Shown: in pieces, positions 1,636-30,917 of the stretch
Layout of the letters: every line of letters begins with the position of its first letter
Numbering within the stretch: position 1 is the stretch's first letter
IMG/VR virus record: IMGVR_UViG_3300030117_005909
Coordinates: 1 to 33,182 of that record
Origin: a virus
Length of the DNA stretch: 33,182 nucleotides
Direction: 5' to 3' (one strand)
Program-made: the position numbers and the translations under genes
The notes under the pieces: generated by a model
What the model was told of the DNA's origin: nothing
Seen by the model: only the letters and a program-made list of their open reading frames with translations
Database searches by the model: none

Positions 1636-4482
1636 TTAATCCGCCATTTTTAAGTTTAAATCGTTTTTCAATTGCTCCATACCAGAAGCCTCTAATCTTT
1701 TTGCTATGTCTTTGTCTTGTTGCATTAAATCTTTTGTGTAACTTCTTGCTGCTGATACAGTTGCAGTTACTAATTTTTCTTTAACGTTATCAGGAAGCAT
1801 TTGGTAATAATCTTCCTGGAACATTTTTTCTAATCCTGGTACTTGTTTTAATTTAAAAGCAGATTTTAAAACTGATCCACTAGGAGCTGGAAATCCTCCT
1901 TTTTCTGTAAGATTGCCAGATAACATTTTAAAAACACTTTCCTCTTCTGAAGTCATTTCTACTGATTGAGGAAATATTCTTGTTAATCCAGTATTGTCAG
2001 AATAATTCATATACCTATTTATTTTAGGCAAAGTAGGATTTAATCTTCTTAATTCTTGTGTTACTGGAGTTTTTCTTACTTTATTTAAAAAACCTATTTT
2101 ATAAACTGGTTTACCTAATATATCGTAGTCTTTATATTGATTAGCTTCATAAACATTCTTTAATAATAATTCGTCAAATTCTCTTGTTATCTTTTTAAAA
2201 TCATCATCAAAAAATTTACCTACTTGCTCTGCACCAGTTGGTACAAATGAAGCTGCGTATCTTTGAAAATACTTACTCCAAAATTTATCGTCAGTATCAT
2301 TTAGATAAGCTTGTTTTCCGTATGTCCAATCTTCAGCAAAGTTTGTTACACCTTGCATATAAGTAGAGTTAGAGATGTTTTCGCCAAAAGCTAAAATCAT
2401 TCCTAATGTAAAATCTGTATAAGATTGCCATGCTTTAGGATCGTCTTGTATATAGTGAGCAAGTTGACCTAGATCCGCACCCATACTTAACATTTGAGCT
2501 AATGGATCTAAACCTATTGTACTAATTCTAAAGTCTTCGAAGTTAATTGATTTAGGAACTTCGTTTTGTATTTTTAATAATTCATTTTTACTTTTTTTAT
2601 TAACGTTTGGATATGAACCGTTTACATGATTGAAGTAACCAAGTGGAGCAATCATTCCATAGAATGAATATCCTAATGTCATTTTAGCTAGAGCTCTTTG
2701 TCTTCTAGCACCACCAGCAGCTAAATCATCGTTAAATGTTTTAACTAAATGTTGTAGTCCTGGAGTTCTTTCTAAAGCAAAACCAGCAATATTAGTTGGC
2801 GTTCTAATAAAAGGTAAATAATAATTGGTCCACCAAGAAAACCATCCAGAATTTCTTTTAATAGCAGATCCAGTTTTTAAAACGTTATCTAAAAAATCTC
2901 CTCTTTTTTTAGTCTGATAAGTTACATAGTGAGCTGCATCGTAAGCTTCTTGAAGTGCGTTTTTAGATGGATTGACAACAAAGTCTGCGATGTAATCAGC
3001 AGCTTGTTTTTGATCTAATACACCAAGCTCAATTTTCTTCATCGCTTCTCTAAAACCTAAAGCGTAAAGTTCACCTCTGTATTCAATATTTTTAAAATAG
3101 TTATCTGCAAAAGTTAAAAATCTTGTAGGTATTCTTCCAAGAGTAATAATATTACCTACTGTATCAATAGCACCAGAAGCTAATTTATTTTCAACATTAA
3201 AATTAGCACCACTAGCAGCATTAACTCTATCTCCTAATTCTACTTTACTACCTTTAGAAAAAATTGGTTTTATATCTGCTGCTTCAAATCTTCCACGTAG
3301 CATGTTTGAAATTGACTTAGCCATAGCTGCGTGCATCTCTGTAGCCATTTGGTGTTTGCCAAAAGCTTTAGCAACATCTTCATAAACAGCCATTTTATCA
3401 AAATTAGCTTTACCTAAAGTTGGCATCATTGTAGCTAATTTTCTTTCAACTTGAGTAATAGCTTGAGTGATCCAATTACCAGCAGTATTTCTAATATGCG
3501 TCATTGGATTTGAAAGAATGACGTTAATAAAACTTTCTGCTATAGCATCTGAAAATTTACCAATATTTGCATAAGCTCCAGTCTGCTGATTGAAGGCTAA
3601 TTTTCTATCTGCTCTACCACTTTCTAAATATAGTCTAGCAAAATCTCTAGAAGCTCCTTCATCTCCTAATTCTAAAACTAAATCTCTTTCTAAGAGCTCA
3701 TCCATCCTAGGATTAAAAGTTGATCCTTGAGTTCTAGTTGGTATTCTAAATTGCTGAAGTGCTCTACCAGTTTCAGTTTGAACACCTTTAATAACTTTCT
3801 GTAATTCTGCTGTAAGAGCAAAGTGCTGTCTAAAAGCTACAATGTCAGCCATATCGCCAGTCTGAGCTTTATTAGCTAATACATCTAATTTATTTAAAGA
3901 TGCTACTAATAATTCTCTAGCGGCATAAATAGTTTCTGCGTTTAAAGTATATCCAGGCTGCAACGTTAATAATTTTGCTGTTAAATTACTTTCGTTTTGA
4001 CCTAATAAAGTAGCAAGTTGTTTTGTTACTTTTTGAGTTTGAACGCCTCTTTTTTGTTTATTAATATCTTTAGCAAACTTTTCAGATATTTTTTCTATTA
4101 AAACTTTTATATCGTCTTCTGATGTAATTTTATTAATGTTAAAGTCAGTTAAAATTTCTTGACTAATTTTTTCATTAATAGATGTTAATTTTAAATCTTC
4201 TAAAACTTCGTCAGCTTGCTGATCTACATCTTTAATTTTAATTTTTTCTTTTATAATTTTTACTTGAGTAGCTGATTGTTCGCCATCTTTTAAAGTAATT
4301 TTTTTATCTTTACCTATTTTAATCTTTTTATCTTTAGGTTCTTTTTTTAATAAATTACCTCTTGGAGTTAATTCTGTTCCTTCTTCAGCAGCTTTTACTT
4401 TGTCTGCTACTTCATCAAGATTTATTTTTGTTTTGTCTAATACTTTCTTTTTAGCTAAAGTTTTTAATATTGCTGCTACCAT
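1636..4482 (-). CDS. Large internal (ejected) virion protein with LPD38-like polyvalent region
   Basis: A 948-residue protein in the position of T7 gp16. The first ~150 residues are lysine-rich and helical. The central part carries signatures I recognise from large polyvalent protein-associated domain 38: ILSNPMTHIRNTAGN (322-336), R-I-P-T-R-F-L-T-F-A-D-N-Y-F-K (450-464), YVTYQ (519-523) and PFIRTPTNI (557-565), followed by hydrophobic segments near 605-625. Polyvalent proteins are thought to be injected with phage DNA. It lies just before the tail fibre in the late block, the place of core/ejection proteins. I see no clear transglycosylase motif. Assignment to ejection is inferred from order and domain type. 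Confidence 0.65.
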   Translation of the reverse strand: MVAAILKTLAKKKVLDKTKINLDEVADKVKAAEEGTELTPRGNLLKKEPKDKKIKIGKDKKITLKDGEQSATQVKIIKEKIKIKDVDQQADEVLEDLKLTSINEKISQEILTDFNINKITSEDDIKVLIEKISEKFAKDINKQKRGVQTQKVTKQLATLLGQNESNLTAKLLTLQPGYTLNAETIYAARELLVASLNKLDVLANKAQTGDMADIVAFRQHFALTAELQKVIKGVQTETGRALQQFRIPTRTQGSTFNPRMDELLERDLVLELGDEGASRDFARLYLESGRADRKLAFNQQTGAYANIGKFSDAIAESFINVILSNPMTHIRNTAGNWITQAITQVERKLATMMPTLGKANFDKMAVYEDVAKAFGKHQMATEMHAAMAKSISNMLRGRFEAADIKPIFSKGSKVELGDRVNAASGANFNVENKLASGAIDTVGNIITLGRIPTRFLTFADNYFKNIEYRGELYALGFREAMKKIELGVLDQKQAADYIADFVVNPSKNALQEAYDAAHYVTYQTKKRGDFLDNVLKTGSAIKRNSGWFSWWTNYYLPFIRTPTNIAGFALERTPGLQHLVKTFNDDLAAGGARRQRALAKMTLGYSFYGMIAPLGYFNHVNGSYPNVNKKSKNELLKIQNEVPKSINFEDFRISTIGLDPLAQMLSMGADLGQLAHYIQDDPKAWQSYTDFTLGMILAFGENISNSTYMQGVTNFAEDWTYGKQAYLNDTDDKFWSKYFQRYAASFVPTGAEQVGKFFDDDFKKITREFDELLLKNVYEANQYKDYDILGKPVYKIGFLNKVRKTPVTQELRRLNPTLPKINRYMNYSDNTGLTRIFPQSVEMTSEEESVFKMLSGNLTEKGGFPAPSGSVLKSAFKLKQVPGLEKMFQEDYYQMLPDNVKEKLVTATVSAARSYTKDLMQQDKDIAKRLEASGMEQLKNDLNLKMAD

Positions 4483-20199: not shown

Positions 20200-20227
20200 A
20201 TTATACAGCTGAGTTATAACTTTTCAA
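20200..20227 (-). promoter_or_regulatory. sigma70-like promoter of the packaging/structural operon
   Basis: On the minus strand TTGAAA (20227-20222), a 16-bp spacer and a perfect TATAAT (20205-20200). It lies in a 151-bp AT-rich gap between the DUF6362-like gene and the HGG-motif gene and faces the terminase genes. With no phage RNA polymerase in the window, this is the natural start of late transcription by host polymerase. Confidence 0.65.
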
Positions 20228-20260: not shown

Positions 20261-20737
20261 TTAAGACAATAAATAGAGATTTCTGTTCAATAAGTCAAAT
20301 TTTATTTCAGTTTTTATTTTCTCTACTAGCTTTGATAGGATTGTCAGATATTTATTTTTAATTGTAGTTCTATGATAACCAAAATGTCTAGCAAGCTCTG
20401 TCCATTTATATTTTTTAGCTCTCATCCATAGCAACTCTCTTACCTCTATAGGATTATCAACTATATCTTTATCAACTAACATCATAATTTCTATTGCAAA
20501 CTCCCACCTGGTTATCTGTCTTGGTGATGCTCTGAGCTTCAATTGCTTTTGATAATAACCAATATCTTTCTTATCATAGCTAGTAATCAATATATCATAC
20601 ATACTTGGCGATCCAGGATGCCTTGGTTTTGATATAAAACGTTCTGTACGAGCTGCATCTTCAAATAAATTAACAATGTTATCTATCTTTAAGATGTCTT
20701 CTCTTAAATGATAATTAAAGTCTTGTTTAGTCTCCAA
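20261..20737 (-). CDS. DUF6362-like helix-turn-helix protein
   Basis: A 158-residue protein. The C-terminal half has S-P-R-Q-I-T-R-W-E-F-A-I-E (70-82), E-L-L-W-M-R-A-K-K-Y-K-W-T-E-L-A-R-H-F-G and HRTTIKNKYLTILSKLVEKI, the pattern of DUF6362, a helix-turn-helix protein frequent in alphaproteobacterial phages. I infer DNA binding. It could be a late regulator or an accessory packaging protein, since it is the last gene before the late promoter. It overlaps the upstream gene by 11 bp. Confidence 0.65.
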   Translation of the reverse strand: METKQDFNYHLREDILKIDNIVNLFEDAARTERFISKPRHPGSPSMYDILITSYDKKDIGYYQKQLKLRASPRQITRWEFAIEIMMLVDKDIVDNPIEVRELLWMRAKKYKWTELARHFGYHRTTIKNKYLTILSKLVEKIKTEIKFDLLNRNLYLLS

Positions 20738-21254
20738 GCTTTTTCTCCTTCATAACCTTAGTAAAAATCCATGGATATTTTATTTCTTTTTGTGATATTT
20801 GTTTTAGCTCTGCATCAGTTAAACTGAATAACTTATCGTAAAGATCGTATTGATCTAAATTGGCAAACTTGTACGTAATATTTAATTGCTCTGGCTCTCG
20901 TTTTAAATGTTGCTGTAAGTTGGTCCAACCTTTACCAGAATTATAGCCTAGAAATCCAATTGATTTAATGAATGTTTTATATCTTGGCAAATCAAATTCT
21001 AATCTTCGTAAAGCTTTGTTATCTATAACAGAAACTAAAGCATCACCTTCTACAGTTACACTACACAAATCATTTAATATCTTTTTTACTCTATCAACTG
21101 GCAACAATAAATCGTTTGCAGTTTGTACGTAATTAATAAATGGTTTTAAAGTTCTTACATTATACTGCGAGCACCAATAGTTATAAGCTTTAAATGCTGT
21201 ATCTGTAATTTGTAATTTTAATACTTCTTTATCTGCTATGTAAAATTTCTGCAT
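20727..21254 (-). CDS. Unknown protein with possible winged-helix N-terminus
   Basis: A 175-residue protein. Residues 16-65 (TDTAFKAYNYWCSQYNVRTL ... VDRVKKILNDL) read like a winged-helix or replication-initiator-type fold, followed by a segment containing FLGYNSGKGWTNLQQHLKRE. No named family recognised. It overlaps the upstream gene by 26 bp and the downstream one by 11 bp, forming a three-gene unit transcribed away from the early operon. A DNA-binding role is only suggested. Confidence 0.5.
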   Translation of the reverse strand: MQKFYIADKEVLKLQITDTAFKAYNYWCSQYNVRTLKPFINYVQTANDLLLPVDRVKKILNDLCSVTVEGDALVSVIDNKALRRLEFDLPRYKTFIKSIGFLGYNSGKGWTNLQQHLKREPEQLNITYKFANLDQYDLYDKLFSLTDAELKQISQKEIKYPWIFTKVMKEKKLGD

Positions 21255-21696
21255 AATCTTTTTGTTGTGCTGGTGTTAAACTATTTATCTTTTTTTTAAA
21301 AATTTCTTTGCGTGTACAACTTGGATAATGCTTTACCTGGAATGATGCTAAAAAACTTATCCATTGCTCCCAGCTGCAATGTTGGATCTTCGAATAATTT
21401 GGACTTATTTTTTTTACTGATACTCTATAAACTCTTTCTAATTCTTCGTGATACCAAATGATGTATGCGTTTAAATTAGACTTTTCAGCAAGTCTTCGTA
21501 TTAATCTATGTCCTTTTTTATAATCTTCTCTTGGTCCTTTATGCCTAGTCAATTCAGCAAGCATTAAAGGCTCACTGCACGCTATACACGAGCATACTTT
21601 GTCTAAATCTATATAAGCTATACCATCGTGGCTTTCACGGTGAGTTTTGGAATATGCGTTAAAACTCACGTCTTTTGCGTATATTTGGCGTGCCAT
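21229..21696 (-). CDS. Unknown protein, first leftward gene of the divergent region
   Basis: A 155-residue basic protein (MARQIYAKDVSFNAYSKTHR). Cysteines at C-S-C-I-A-C (34-39) and later single Cys/His residues could bind a metal. The segment G-H-R-L-I-R-R-L-A-E-K-S-N-L-N-A-Y-I-I-W-Y-H is the most conserved-looking part. No family recognised. It begins about 40 bp downstream of a predicted minus-strand promoter (21745-21772) and so should be expressed under control of the 21781-21797 palindrome. Confidence 0.55.
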   Translation of the reverse strand: MARQIYAKDVSFNAYSKTHRESHDGIAYIDLDKVCSCIACSEPLMLAELTRHKGPREDYKKGHRLIRRLAEKSNLNAYIIWYHEELERVYRVSVKKISPNYSKIQHCSWEQWISFLASFQVKHYPSCTRKEIFKKKINSLTPAQQKDYAEILHSR

Positions 21697-21744
21697 AATT
21701 AAGTGCCACTTCTAGCTAGATAAACAAAAAATGGCTGTTTTCGC

Positions 21745-21772
21745 TCTATATAAGCGGAATATAAGAAATCAA
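21745..21772 (-). promoter_or_regulatory. Leftward promoter candidate of the divergent region
   Basis: On the minus strand TTGATT (21772-21767), a 16-bp spacer and TATAGA (21750-21745), each 4 of 6 matches to the sigma70 consensus. It would start transcripts near 21738, 42 bp upstream of the 21696 ATG. Confidence 0.45.
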
Positions 21773-21780
21773 GACTTATT

Positions 21781-21797
21781 TTCTACATTTTGTAGAA
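21781..21797. promoter_or_regulatory. Perfect 17-bp palindrome between divergent promoters (operator candidate)
   Basis: TTCTACA-TTT-TGTAGAA, 7-bp arms and a 3-bp centre. It lies 8 bp from the leftward -35 and 6 bp from the rightward -35 box, so one bound dimer could act on both promoters. The adjacent rightward operon begins with two putative DNA-binding regulators, the natural candidates to bind it. Confidence 0.6.
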
Positions 21798-21803
21798 TAA
21801 TAG

Positions 21804-21831
21804 TTGCTTTTATAGGAATAACTCTTATATG
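21804..21831 (+). promoter_or_regulatory. Rightward (early operon) promoter candidate
   Basis: TTGCTT (21804-21809), a 16-bp spacer and TATATG (21826-21831). It faces the early operon. If used, transcripts start near 21838, almost on the ATG at 21839, which would make a leaderless message, or the true start of the first gene lies further in. Confidence 0.4.
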
Positions 21832-21838
21832 TACGAAA

Positions 21839-22501
21839 ATGCAAAAAACAAAGAAAAAATACAACTTTCAGCACGTGCAAAAGTTTCCTGTAAATTCTTC
21901 CGATACACAAAACAGTTCTCAAAATGTAGAATTAAAAATGATGAAGAAAGATAAATATAATAAAAAATTTTATGAAAATGCTGTTGCAACAGTTAATGAT
22001 GCAAATCTTAACAGAGCAAAAAGAATTACAAAAAGAGTATTTAACCGATTACAAAATTTAAATAGTAAAACAAAAATTTTAACAAATAAAACTATGCCTA
22101 CTGTTATCACACTATTTAAAGACGTTGTTTTTCAAAATTTAGATTTACACGATGCTTGGCATAAAGATCCAATATTAAAAAACTTTATTGGTGACACAAA
22201 ATTTTACCTTTTACATAAAATTATGAAAAAAACATTAACTGGTAAACCTTGTTACAAAGAAAAGCTTTGCACTTATAAAAATTTAGGTGTTTCAATAAAA
22301 ACTGCATATAAAATTTTAGATGAATTAGTTCAAGATGGATATTTAATTTATATGGATGCTTTTGATACAGATGAAAAAAGAAATACAAAAAATATTAGAC
22401 CTTCTGAAGATGTAGCTGTTGCATACAATTCACTATATTTAACACAACTTGAAAAACAATATAACCATGTAAAAGATTTTTTAAATGAGAATAAGCCATA
22501 A
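21839..22501 (+). CDS. Winged-helix regulator-like protein, first gene of the early operon
   Basis: The frame is open from an ATG at 21731, but the first 36 codons are hydrophobic, lack a ribosome-binding site and overlap the divergent promoters and palindrome, so I prefer the ATG at 21839 (220 residues). ATG at 21938 is another option. The C-terminal part has L-C-T-Y-K-N-L-G-V-S-I-K-T-A-Y-K-I-L-D-E-L-V-Q-D-G-Y-L, a winged helix-turn-helix with a wing carrying D-E-K-R-N, like MarR/replication-initiator-type regulators. The N-terminus is lysine-rich. It probably controls the divergent region or initiates replication. The 3' end overlaps the next gene by 17 bp. Confidence 0.55.
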   Translation: MQKTKKKYNFQHVQKFPVNSSDTQNSSQNVELKMMKKDKYNKKFYENAVATVNDANLNRAKRITKRVFNRLQNLNSKTKILTNKTMPTVITLFKDVVFQNLDLHDAWHKDPILKNFIGDTKFYLLHKIMKKTLTGKPCYKEKLCTYKNLGVSIKTAYKILDELVQDGYLIYMDAFDTDEKRNTKNIRPSEDVAVAYNSLYLTQLEKQYNHVKDFLNENKP

Positions 22502-23825
22502 TAAATATTCAATACAAAAAATAGATGACAAAGTAAAGTTTGTCGATTTTAAAGAAGGAACGGTTTCAGATTTAGTTCATACCTTTGTTAATAAATTTAA
22601 CGGATCTTTATTATCTGAAAATACTGCCAAGGTAACTTTCTTTTACGCTAATGGAAATGTCAGAGAAATATTTGGACCAGAAAATGAAATTTATATTTTA
22701 TCAAAAAAAGTAATTAACGATAAAAAAAATTATGTCGATAAAGAAAAGATGATGACGATATTTATGGAGCAATGGAAACAAGCAGCTCCTTCATATTACA
22801 ATTATTATAATCCAAATCTAAACTCTCGAAAAGCAAGAGGTATAATGGGTTTATTGTCTGAAGTTGATGAAGAAAAATTTAAAATACAGCCTGGAGAAAT
22901 ATTAAAAACACAACTAGCAAGTCAAAAAATTAGCACTGAAAAATTTGCAGAAACTTTAAATAAAAATAAATCATCAGTGTACAGTCATATTAAAGGTGAA
23001 AGAGCTCTATCAAGAGATGTAGCAATAGAGTATTCAAAAAAACTTGGTATAGATCCAGTAGATTTAATGTTTGAAAAGAAAACTGTTGAAGTATGGGGAT
23101 ATGTAGATTTTATAAAAAAATCAATTAAAAACAATTTTACATCTTACAAACATCCAGGAGAAATAGTACCAGTTGAAGGTGTTGCACCAAAAGTAATTAT
23201 TGGTAGAGATTATTATTCTCCTAATTTAAGAGCAGTCAAATCTACAACAGACGGATCTATGTATGATGATAAAACATTTTTTTACTACAAGGATAATCAA
23301 AGAAATTTAGAAACACACAACAAGCTTTGTGCTGTAGGTGGTATGTTTAAAAACGGTTTATTTGGTTTTTGGATTGGTATTTATGAATTATATCAAGGCA
23401 AACATAACTTAATTAATCCAGATCCTTTTGCAAAAGATAAATATATTTTAGAAGATTTTGAGCCAAATTTTATTTCACCTATTGCTTTAGTTTCAGATGT
23501 TAAAGCTGTAACTGATAATACTTCAGCAAAATCAATTATACCTGAACATTTATATTATGAAGAAGCTAGAAAAGAGAGACAACTTTACGATCTAGAATTT
23601 AGATATAAAAAAGCAATTACAGAATTAGAGTTGCAAGAGACACAACAAAAAAAAATATTTGAGAAAACAGAAAAATTAAAAGAATTATTTGAAAAAGATA
23701 AAAAAGTATTAGAGCAACAAGTAGAGAATGCAAAACGTAGTGTTGAAAAAGCGATTGAAGAAAACAAGTTAAAACTTTTCGATCTAAGAGAAGTTGTTGA
23801 GGAGAACCAGAAGAGACGTGCGTAA
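22485..23825 (+). CDS. XRE helix-turn-helix protein with LexA/S24-like domain and C-terminal coiled coil
   Basis: A 446-residue protein. Residues 1-130 are a domain I do not recognise. About 136-200 hold an XRE-type helix-turn-helix (LKTQLASQKISTEKFAETLN, SSVYSHIKGERALS, LGIDPVDLMF). About 203-330 resemble the LexA/CI C-terminal fold: V-E-V-W-G-Y-V-D-F, then STTDGSMYDDKTFFYYKD, where G-S-M would hold the Ser. Where LexA has its catalytic Lys, the sequence reads IGIYELYQGKHNL, with no obvious lysine in place. The last ~85 residues form a long coiled coil. It is the best phage repressor candidate. Lack of self-cleavage is inferred. Confidence 0.6.
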   Translation: MRISHNKYSIQKIDDKVKFVDFKEGTVSDLVHTFVNKFNGSLLSENTAKVTFFYANGNVREIFGPENEIYILSKKVINDKKNYVDKEKMMTIFMEQWKQAAPSYYNYYNPNLNSRKARGIMGLLSEVDEEKFKIQPGEILKTQLASQKISTEKFAETLNKNKSSVYSHIKGERALSRDVAIEYSKKLGIDPVDLMFEKKTVEVWGYVDFIKKSIKNNFTSYKHPGEIVPVEGVAPKVIIGRDYYSPNLRAVKSTTDGSMYDDKTFFYYKDNQRNLETHNKLCAVGGMFKNGLFGFWIGIYELYQGKHNLINPDPFAKDKYILEDFEPNFISPIALVSDVKAVTDNTSAKSIIPEHLYYEEARKERQLYDLEFRYKKAITELELQETQQKKIFEKTEKLKELFEKDKKVLEQQVENAKRSVEKAIEENKLKLFDLREVVEENQKRRA

Positions 23826-24114
23826 GTTAGAAGATTATTCAAGTAAAGAACTAAAAGAAATGTTACCTCCACAAAAAGTTGCTAGAGAATTTGGATTAAA
23901 CTCAGACACGTTAGCTTACATGAGAGAATGCAGCAGAGATGAAGGTAGACTTAGAGGTCCAATGTTTTTAAAAGATGAAAATATTATTCTTTATCAAAGA
24001 AAAAGCGTTGTAATTTGGTTACATAAAGCAATGTTCTCGCCAACGGAAAGTGCCAAAAGTGCGGAAACAAACCAAACAAATAAATCAAAAAGAAATCTAT
24101 CATCCGTCAAATAA
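23818..24114 (+). CDS. Excisionase/AlpA-like DNA-binding protein
   Basis: The frame is open from TTG codons at 23794 and 23797, but GTG at 23818 overlaps the previous stop, with GAGGAG upstream, giving 98 residues. Residues 16-65 (M-L-P-P-Q-K-V-A-R-E-F-G-L, TLAYMRECS, GPMFLKDENIILYQRKSVVIWL) follow the winged-helix plan of excisionases and AlpA-type regulators. The C-terminus is a polar tail rich in Ser, Asn and Lys. It could bend attP DNA with the integrase (28714-29979) during excision, or regulate transcription. The integrase is 5 kb away on the other strand, unlike many int-xis pairs. Confidence 0.6.
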   Translation: MRKLEDYSSKELKEMLPPQKVAREFGLNSDTLAYMRECSRDEGRLRGPMFLKDENIILYQRKSVVIWLHKAMFSPTESAKSAETNQTNKSKRNLSSVK

Positions 24115-26776: not shown

Positions 26777-27120
26777 TGAAAAAGAGAAAACAAAGAGTAG
26801 TAGAAAATCCAAAAATTACTTATGATAGTTACTTTCACTATCAAAACTTTAGCAGTGATGAGCCTACTGCGAGAATAAATAATTCACCGTGGCACTTAAA
26901 ATATGAAGATGGAGTTCCAGCTTTTTATTTCAGGTATCAAGATACATTTAAGCAAGTGTCCTTTGAATGCTTCATAACCAATGCCAACAACAGTCGAACA
27001 TTTGACTTTAGTAATTGGCAAGATCAGGTTGAAGCTTATTTCAACAAACCACTAGAGGAGGTTAAAAAATGTCTAATCAAGGCACAACAGAAGATCAAAA
27101 AATCTTCAACCATCAATTAG
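26776..27120 (+). CDS. Unknown early protein
   Basis: About 114 residues, from the ATG that overlaps the previous stop (TAATG). An in-frame ATG at 26767 would add three residues. The body has aromatic-rich beta segments (Y-D-S-Y-F-H-Y-Q-N-F, VPAFYFRYQDTFKQVSFECF) and a basic C-terminus (KKCLIKAQQKIKKS). No family recognised. The last 52 bp overlap the XRE gene, whose ribosome-binding site (GAGGAGG) lies inside this gene, so the two are coupled. Confidence 0.5.
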   Translation: MKKRKQRVVENPKITYDSYFHYQNFSSDEPTARINNSPWHLKYEDGVPAFYFRYQDTFKQVSFECFITNANNSRTFDFSNWQDQVEAYFNKPLEEVKKCLIKAQQKIKKSSTIN

Positions 27121-27506
27121 GTAAAAATATAAAATACCTAAGAAAACAAAAAGGCTTAACACAATCAAGAGTTGGCAAAGTCATTAATACTTCGTTCCAA
27201 CAAATTCAAAAGTATGAAAGAGGTACTAATGCACCTCATCCAGCTTCACTTGTTAAGCTTGCATTATTTTTCAAGATTAGTTTGGATAGATTATGTAGTC
27301 AAAATTTAATCAGCGATCTTGAAAGATTTAAAGACAAAGTAAAAGACTTGGAGGTAGCTACAGCAGATGGAGTAGCGGTTCCAATGGAAGGCATGACTAA
27401 CGAAATAGATGCGTTAGTAAAAAAAGTACAGCAGAACTCAGAGAAGTTTGTAGCTGGACAGCCGTTGTTATTTAAATTTAATAAAGAGGTTGATCCATGG
27501 CTGTAA
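27069..27506 (+). CDS. XRE/Cro-family transcriptional regulator
   Basis: A 145-residue protein. Residues 16-75 form a Cro/CI-type helix-turn-helix: L-G-K-N-I-K-Y-L-R-K-Q-K-G-L-T-Q, VINTSFQQIQKYERGTNAP, PASLVKLALFFKISLDRL. The remainder is an acidic helical part without a LexA-like peptidase domain. It could act as Cro/antirepressor against the repressor candidate at 22485-23825. A strong GAGGAGG lies 6 bp upstream of its ATG, giving higher translation than its neighbours. Confidence 0.75.
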   Translation: MSNQGTTEDQKIFNHQLGKNIKYLRKQKGLTQSRVGKVINTSFQQIQKYERGTNAPHPASLVKLALFFKISLDRLCSQNLISDLERFKDKVKDLEVATADGVAVPMEGMTNEIDALVKKVQQNSEKFVAGQPLLFKFNKEVDPWL

Positions 27507-28713: not shown

Positions 28714-29979
28714 CTAGTTTAAATCTTCGTATACGTGATCTAACGCTTGAGCGATTTTAGCGTCTTTCGGTGAGTTTTTATGTAGATCACCATGCTTTCC
28801 ATAAATACCTCTCGTAGTATTTATATTTTGATGACCTATTTGCGTTCTAATAAAGTTATCAGATAGAACTGGTTGCTCCGCCTGGTTGTCTAGCAATGCA
28901 GTAGAAGCAAAGTGTCTAAATGTTTTAAAAGGTTCGCCTTTAAATTTAGATGATATTACTTTGATGTGTTCATTGTTATCTTCAATAATAGCTAAACCAA
29001 TATTAGCATAAGATCGCCATAAGAAATTTCTTAATTGTTTATCTGTAATTGGCAATCTAGTATTTGCATGCTGAAGTACATATTTTGGATCTTGAATAAA
29101 ATCCTTTTGTCTAGCTTTGAACCTAACTAATAAATGTAAAAGCTTTGATGGCATAATTAATACTCTACCAATTTCTTCAGCTCCTAACCTATCAGCTTTA
29201 GTACCTACAGTAATTTGATTACGCTCATTTATTGTACGATCAATTTTAATACGCTTTGTATTGAAGCTAATGTTGGACCAAGGTATCGCTCTTATTTCTG
29301 CTGGTCTTGCACCAAGATACATAAACAAACAAACACCAATAAAATTAACAAGATCATCATAAGTATAATTCTCTTTGTCTTTAGGTTTGATCTCATTATA
29401 AAGTTTTTTAACTTCATAAAGAGTTATCATTGTAGTTTCTTTTCTCTTGTCAGATCCATCAGTAGGTTTGAGTTCTGGATAATCGTTGATTTCAAAAAAT
29501 TCAATATTATAATTTTTTCTCTCAACTAAATCTTCATTGATGCACCACTCAAACATACCTTTGAATTGAAAGATATGAGTATTACATGTTCTATAAGTAA
29601 AATTAGCTGCACGTATTTTTTTGAAATATTCTTTCAAATGTTTTGCAGATAAATCTCTAAGTAAAACATGTTTAGGAAAAAAGCTTACCACCTTCTCCAT
29701 GTTACGTATGTAAAGTTTAGCCTGGTCCTCACTCATACTATCGTATGTGTTCCATAGCTCATACTTGTAGTTAGCAAATTTAGTCCATGCTTCTACAACA
29801 GTTAATTCAGATACAGCCTTCAAAGCCTTCTCTGGTTCCTTAACTAGATTGTCTCTAAAATCTTGAGCTTCTTTCTCAGTCTCAAATTTAGATACTTGTT
29901 TATATTTACCTAGGTTGTCCATTTGTTGGACCACAAACCATTTACCTCTAGGTACTACTTTTGTCTTAATCATTTTCAT
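28714..29979 (-). CDS. int: Tyrosine-recombinase integrase
   Basis: A 421-residue phage integrase. The N-terminal ~55 residues look like an arm-binding domain (V-P-R-G-K-W-F-V-V-Q), 60-165 are the SAM-like core-binding domain, and 185-410 the catalytic domain. Catalytic residues are Arg225 (G-A-R-P-A-E-I), Lys261, Arg355 and His356 (K-T-F-R-H), His383 (I-G-H-Q-N) and Tyr393 (R-G-I-Y-G). In the H-x-x-R box the first position is Lys352 instead of His. It makes the phage temperate. It converges with the early operon, and the probable attP lies just upstream (30053-30280). Confidence 0.92.
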   Translation of the reverse strand: MKMIKTKVVPRGKWFVVQQMDNLGKYKQVSKFETEKEAQDFRDNLVKEPEKALKAVSELTVVEAWTKFANYKYELWNTYDSMSEDQAKLYIRNMEKVVSFFPKHVLLRDLSAKHLKEYFKKIRAANFTYRTCNTHIFQFKGMFEWCINEDLVERKNYNIEFFEINDYPELKPTDGSDKRKETTMITLYEVKKLYNEIKPKDKENYTYDDLVNFIGVCLFMYLGARPAEIRAIPWSNISFNTKRIKIDRTINERNQITVGTKADRLGAEEIGRVLIMPSKLLHLLVRFKARQKDFIQDPKYVLQHANTRLPITDKQLRNFLWRSYANIGLAIIEDNNEHIKVISSKFKGEPFKTFRHFASTALLDNQAEQPVLSDNFIRTQIGHQNINTTRGIYGKHGDLHKNSPKDAKIAQALDHVYEDLN

Positions 29980-30826: not shown

Positions 30827-30917
30827 GGTGAGATGGGTGAGTTGGCTTAAACCACAGCTTTGCTAAAGCTGCGAAGGTGAAAATCTTCCGTGGGTTCGAA
30901 TCCCACTCTCACCGCCA
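30827..30917 (+). tRNA. tRNA-Ser (anticodon GCU), with encoded CCA
   Basis: Acceptor stem GGTGAGA/TCTCACC is fully paired (30827-30833 with 30907-30913), followed by discriminator G and CCA. The anticodon stem CAGCT/AGCTG encloses TTGCTAA with anticodon GCT at 30862-30864. A long variable arm (GAAG...CTTC), as expected for tRNA-Ser, precedes a T arm GTGGG-TTCGAAT-CCCAC. It would read AGC/AGU serine codons. The gene lies antisense to the surrounding minus-strand genes, one base from the stop of the DUF6321 gene. It may supply tRNA during infection, or be the attP tRNA for integration. Confidence 0.93.

Follow-up and report, generated by a model that had tools for sequence, protein, structure and literature searches.

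A palindrome between divergent promoters is very probably the operator of a lambda-like repressor in a temperate HTVC010P-type pelagiphage

HTVC010P-type phages rank with the ocean's most abundant viruses, and the open-access literature that we searched describes no operator or lysogeny control for them. A pelagiphage transcriptome paper covers other types, HTVC022P and HTVC027P (PMC12753301). Here we ask which protein reads a short palindrome that lies between two divergent promoters, and what is controlled from it. The window (the whole stretch of DNA that was analysed, 33,182 bp) is a virus contig of 33 kb related to Pelagibacter phages, marine and of the SAR11 type. Its structural genes and gene order match HTVC028P, and lytic HTVC010P-type phages less fully; the HTVC010P-type group has been named Ubiqueviridae (PMC10504331). 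The elements of the divergent gap, all read directly, are as follows.

21781-21797: candidate operator O1, the 7-3-7 palindrome TTCTACA-TTT-TGTAGAA, centre 21789
21772-21767, minus strand: P_L -35 box, TTGATT, 8 bp from the palindrome
21750-21745, minus strand: P_L -10 box, TATAGA, after a 16-bp spacer
21804-21809, plus strand: P_R -35 box, TTGCTT, 6 bp right of O1
21826-21831, plus strand: P_R -10 box, TATATG, after a 16-bp spacer and 7 nt before the ATG at 21839

The palindrome, the boxes, their spacers and the distances of 8 and 6 bp are exactly as the first-pass annotation had them. The palindrome has no other copy in the 33,182-bp record, whether exact or with one mismatch, and its centre falls at about -50 relative to both predicted transcript starts: the P_R mRNA is predicted to be leaderless and to start at the ATG at 21839, and the P_L transcript is predicted to start at about 21738 on the minus strand. 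The P_L boxes match the consensus at 8/12 positions and the P_R boxes, scored by hand, at 7/12; a stock promoter scan of the window listed neither pair. The boxes are weak alone and become credible only via the relatives described below. A terminator or RNA role for the palindrome was rejected because it lies upstream of both predicted transcripts. Separately, the P_L leader has a hairpin just ahead of the first leftward gene (21704-21735, minus strand; z about -2). Such leader hairpins also occur in L133, L140, L141 and L143 (z down to -5 in L143), where a U-rich stretch then follows, and are possible attenuators or terminators.

The genes on either side of the gap, and two others considered below, are listed here.

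20261-20737, minus strand: third P_L-operon gene, 158 aa, DUF6362 with HTH
20727-21254, minus strand: second P_L-operon gene, 175 aa, no family match
21229-21696, minus strand: first P_L-operon gene, 155 aa, CxxC motif
21839-22501, plus strand: accessory winged-helix protein, first gene of the P_R operon in the window phage, with weak HTH_36 and DnaD-like matches
22485-23825, plus strand: predicted repressor, second gene of the P_R operon
23794-24114, plus strand: small basic protein, in a slot that holds an HTH_17-like (excisionase-type) protein in some relatives
27069-27506: second XRE regulator
28714-29979, minus strand: tyrosine integrase, which marks a temperate lifestyle

A repressor gene and an integrase are thus both present in the window, which fits a temperate HTVC010P-type pelagiphage. 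Among 23 records, every one that has the repressor and enough flank also has the integrase. The two genes occur together in HTVC028P and in the SAR11 single-cell genome behind L260, and both are absent from 10/10 lytic isolates. No dyad comparable to O1 was present in 9/9 lytic gaps examined, one of these phages, HTVC204P, retaining a single TGGATAA half. The single-cell contig (L260, AG-439-N16 contig 15) has both TTATCCA operators as well as the integrase.

The repressor family sits right of the gap in temperate relatives, and early recombination genes come after the P_R operon. Homologues of the 21839 product occupy the same slot in L144, L145 and L160; the winged-helix gene is an optional insertion between P_R and the repressor gene, found in a few lineages. 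The HTH_17-like call in the slot after the repressor gene is a weak match from the L170 protein, and the window's own protein there has no family match. On the minus strand at 20200-20227, in the 150-bp gap before the terminase-side genes, there is a good promoter match (TTGAAA-16-TATAAT), and the corresponding place in HTVC028P has TTGCAA-16-TAAAAT with a similar spacer. This is a candidate late promoter; late genes would then not need to depend on P_L. The window also has a tRNA-Ser (GCT) at 30827-30917, possibly an attachment-site remnant or cargo, for which no counterpart was found in HTVC028P.

To collect the corresponding gaps of relatives, we used two queries, the leftward gene and an alignment of repressor-family proteins. 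In IMG/VR, the repressor as a single query returned no relatives and the alignment returned 121; several dozen distinct gap sequences were obtained. In most temperate HTVC010P-type relatives the position of the palindrome is taken by a 17-bp 7-3-7 dyad, placed 5-6 bp ahead of the rightward -35 box; each gap examined had a single dyad of this type. The half-sites themselves differ. Many distant temperate relatives have TTATCCA-NNN-TGGATAA, other temperate relatives have TTATGCG/TTATCCA, the HTVC028P group has AAGACC/AGTCTA, L209 has TAATACA, and L204 has TTTTACT/TTCTACT. The bases inside the 5-6 bp interval vary, as does the distance to the leftward -35 box. The best promoter match starts 5 or 6 bp past the dyad in 35 of 44 listed sites (O1 and the second operator, O2, together), a count that is based on operators picked by hand from the gaps of related phages and whose entries are not independent.

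The seven nearest relatives keep both P_L and P_R. Their P_L -35 box is TTGATT (TTGAAT in two) and is followed at the same spacing by a TATAAG/TACAAG-like -10 box; at P_R the -35 box is TTGACT or TTGACA, and then comes a conserved (T)TATAGGA that the window shares. These relatives (L133-L143) keep the left half of the palindrome, as TCYACA, and lack the right half. Most nearest relatives have another dyad, AGTnAAC-N5-GTTnACT, over the P_R -35 box, perfect in L194. From the alignment, then, it is the layout that is conserved among relatives, not the palindrome sequence. The first-pass annotation had looked to such an alignment for conserved boxes and a conserved palindrome: the boxes and their arrangement have held, and the exact palindrome has not been kept in the closest relatives.

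In L133-L143 and L180-L196 the AGTnAAC-N5-GTTnACT dyad lies about one helical turn from the position of the dyad in other phages, and may represent a different immunity type on the same promoter. At the relatives' P_R and nuclease promoters, mostly 5-10 nt separate the -10 box and the start codon, so that early mRNAs of these phages, too, would have no leader or hardly any. A distant clade, freshwater-like or otherwise (L241-L255), has the same repressor family with longer, different dyads: GTCAAGT-N11-ACTTGAC in the divergent gap of L242-L245, and GTAGTCA-AGGC-TGACTAC before the nuclease gene of L241.

Most temperate relatives also carry a second site, O2, before the nuclease gene, with half-sites that match those of O1. 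Examples are TTAGACT-ATC-AGTCTAA at 4118-4134 in HTVC028P and TTATCCA-ATC-TGGATAA in L170. Scored automatically on 18 representatives, O1 and O2 arms agree at a mean of 12.2/14 positions within a phage versus 10.2/14 between phages, and 0/20,000 permutations matched as well. The two sites are roughly 1.6-1.9 kb apart in most relatives. The intergenic gaps of the window yielded no second TTCTACA-type site, so two operator regions of the same specificity are a feature of most relatives, and the window shows one site.

The window's own half-sites recur elsewhere. A distant phage, L216, has TTCTACA-ATA-TGTAGAA 6 bp from a -35 box and TTATACG-ATC-TGTAGAA before its nuclease gene. An IMG/VR pattern scan for TTCTACANNNTGTAGAA alone gave mostly unrelated contigs among the matches listed. 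Scans that required the palindrome, 6 bp and TTG gave 13 stretches, and those that required it with 5 bp and TT gave 46. Besides the contig of L216, two of the phages found under these spacing constraints, L295 and L067, share the gene context, and both have TTCTACA-AAT-TGTAGAA 5 bp from TTGACT.

What kind of protein is encoded to the right of these sites? The 22485-23825 product has an N-terminal domain, an HTH at about residues 136-187 (predicted helices), a lambda-CI-like beta domain at 199-338, and a coiled coil. Of 20 family members, 17-18 have HTH_3/HTH_26 matches (best 1.8e-6); that of the window member is sub-threshold (0.0025). The model of the full protein has moderate confidence (pLDDT 73) and resembles a lambda-186 hybrid repressor most closely, with lambda CI among the other top matches. 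Modelled alone, the C-terminal domain reaches pLDDT 87, and its top seven Foldseek matches are all C-domains of lambda repressor (CI) or LexA, with a modest best E of 3.8e-3 at probability 1.00. A sequence-only search of this domain in the PDB gave weak unrelated matches and did not detect the S24/LexA-like fold. Sequence and structure models together predict a CI-like repressor, with a Cro/C1-type HTH and an S24/LexA-like C-terminal fold. Residue 258, in a GSM-like motif, is an invariant serine. Self-cleavage by a Ser/Lys pair, as in RecA-dependent induction, is doubtful because no lysine is invariant after it.

If this protein reads the sites, its recognition helix (NKSSVYSHIKG in the window) should change with them. 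Half-sites do co-vary with the recognition helix beyond overall relatedness (partial correlation 0.40; 6/5,000 permutations), with operators picked by hand for this comparison. The relatives support an earlier suggestion of a shared operator between divergent promoters, in an integrase phage, with a DNA-binding protein encoded just to the right. Two regulators had been named as candidates: the 22485 product is a plausible reader, and the 21839 product turns out to be an accessory protein absent from this position in most relatives.

Taken together, we think it likely that the palindrome is O1 of a temperate HTVC010P-type pelagiphage, and that a dimer of the 22485-23825 product binds it and controls P_R and P_L, likely negatively. 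The dimer would occupy the two TTCTACA half-sites, from where, flanked by the two -35 boxes, it would affect P_R and P_L simultaneously. P_R would drive the repressor's own operon, after which come early recombination genes, and P_L, in the other direction, a set of three small genes of which one or more carry an HTH. The likely outcome would be negative, with the repressor's own synthesis limited and the lytic programme held down, which would serve to maintain lysogeny. In most relatives, O2 before the nuclease gene would likewise control the early operon, and C-terminal domains could bridge O1 and O2; a loop of this kind is plausible by analogy with lambda. Since the P_R operon includes the repressor gene, the simplest circuit would combine negative autoregulation with repression of P_L.

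The leftward operon is not a lysogeny operon. Its first gene is kept in integrase-less lytic HTVC010P-type phages too, with regulator genes adjoining, and therefore belongs to the lytic programme; the repressor is encoded in the rightward operon. Nor does a single operator replace the OR/OL arrangement as a family rule, as the first-pass annotation had proposed, given the matching second operator of most temperate relatives. Several points count against repression by the 22485 product as we describe it: a repressor encoded inside the operon that it represses is unusual for lysogeny maintenance, the palindrome differs in the nearest relatives, no O2 was found in the window, and the constant 5-6 bp spacing would suit an activator too.

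The same protein and site could instead work in the other direction, with the dimer activating the rightward promoters, or both activating and repressing them, through contact with RNA polymerase; this would drive an early burst or keep up production of the protein itself, in the manner of lambda CI at PRM. At O1 and O2 alike, 5-6 bp separate the operator from the rightward -35 box, while the distance to the leftward box varies; such constant spacing is typical of activators. Moreover, with the repressor gene downstream of P_R, some P_R activity is needed in the lysogen. However, a centre at about -50 is neither of the usual activator positions, and switching on the nuclease operon from O2 would make no sense for a lysogeny protein. 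The dyad over the -35 hexamer in the nearest relatives should block P_R, and so favours repression. We consider activation unlikely, though it is the most serious of the alternatives, and retain repression by the 22485 product as the preferred explanation.

It is improbable that another protein of the same phage reads the palindrome. The second XRE regulator (27069-27506), the 21839 winged-helix protein and an HTH protein of the leftward operon are all putative DNA-binding proteins. The second XRE protein is present in temperate relatives and was not found in the lytic records searched, but its recognition helix is nearly constant within lineages and hardly changes where the operators differ, which rules it out as the specificity partner. 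Most phages with the site have no 21839 product, and lytic phages without the site in their gaps retain the leftward-operon genes.

A host factor is less probable still. The palindrome would then mark a replication origin with a pair of DnaA boxes, which several relatives have in TTATCCACA-like form, or be the operator of a host regulator. Replication origins are often located in divergent gaps, a DnaA_C protein is encoded by lytic relatives, and TTATCCACA or a near match lies inside the dyads of L175 and L170. Yet phages that share a host group have different half-sites, which follow the phage protein, and the lytic phages that encode the DnaA_C protein lack the site. In the window, TTCTACAAA is a poor DnaA box, and the site reads TTCTACAxx on both strands and does not consist of TTATNCACA DnaA boxes. 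Finally, AT-rich DNA often contains such palindromes (for perfect 7-3-7 ones, the expectation at this composition is about 4.8 in the whole window, versus 3 present), but a functionless chance palindrome deserves hardly any weight, as the probability of a perfect one within the 31 bp between the -35 boxes is about 0.002 (about 0.02 with any spacer of 0-8 allowed) and the same half-sites stand at the same spot in L216, L295 and L067.

We compared the proposed repressor-operator pair with known systems. Like lambda CI at OR/OL, it combines 17-bp dyads, an HTH protein with the same predicted C-terminal fold, control of divergent promoters and, in most relatives, two separated operator regions. 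Unlike lambda, the pelagiphages have one site per region rather than three, and their operator lies upstream of the -35 box, near -50, rather than overlapping the promoter. Their repressor gene is inside the rightward operon that it controls and is not divergent from it, and the repressor has an extra N-terminal domain and a long coiled coil, with no conserved lysine at the place expected for self-cleavage. The opposite operon is common to lytic phages, and the divergent genes are unrelated. The arrangement works like a lambda-type repressor-operator pair, yet is not a lambda-type immunity region, as it has neither divergent cI/cro nor tripartite operators.

A precedent for a single-operator switch is the telomere phage PY54, with its single OR3 operator (PMC4488713). 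There too a single short palindrome lies between divergent units and is specific to the phage's own regulator, unlike in its multi-operator relatives, whereas PY54 has cI and cro in divergent orientation, Cro as the known reader, and an operator upstream of the repressor gene (PMC4488713). Phage 186 Apl combines the roles of excisionase and early-region regulator (PMC7498355). The lambda-186 hybrid is the best match of our full model, and in some relatives of the window the gene that directly follows the repressor's encodes the small HTH_17-like protein; phage 186, however, has its own pR/pL layout and clustered sites, and the likeness is one of predicted structure. HTVC028P and other temperate HTVC010P-type phages share the window's gene order, repressor family, dyad layout and integrase. 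HTVC028P differs in its half-site (TTAGACT/AAGACC versus TTCTACA), in lacking a 21839-type gene, and in having two matched operators, with a clear O2.

Tentatively, these phages may share a lysogeny circuit unlike that of lambda, and we offer this joint proposal as a possibility only: a CI-like repressor would be encoded in the early operon that it controls, single 17-bp sites would lie at about -50 of leaderless promoters, O1 and O2 would be bridged, and operator and recognition helix would be exchanged in concert. The result would be many immunity groups, among them TTCTACA, TTATCCA, TTAGACT, TAATACA, TTCTACT and others. With a predicted operator, its reader and their matched specificities in hand, superinfection immunity among SAR11 phages would become predictable from sequence, and could be tested, for example, with the cultured HTVC028P.
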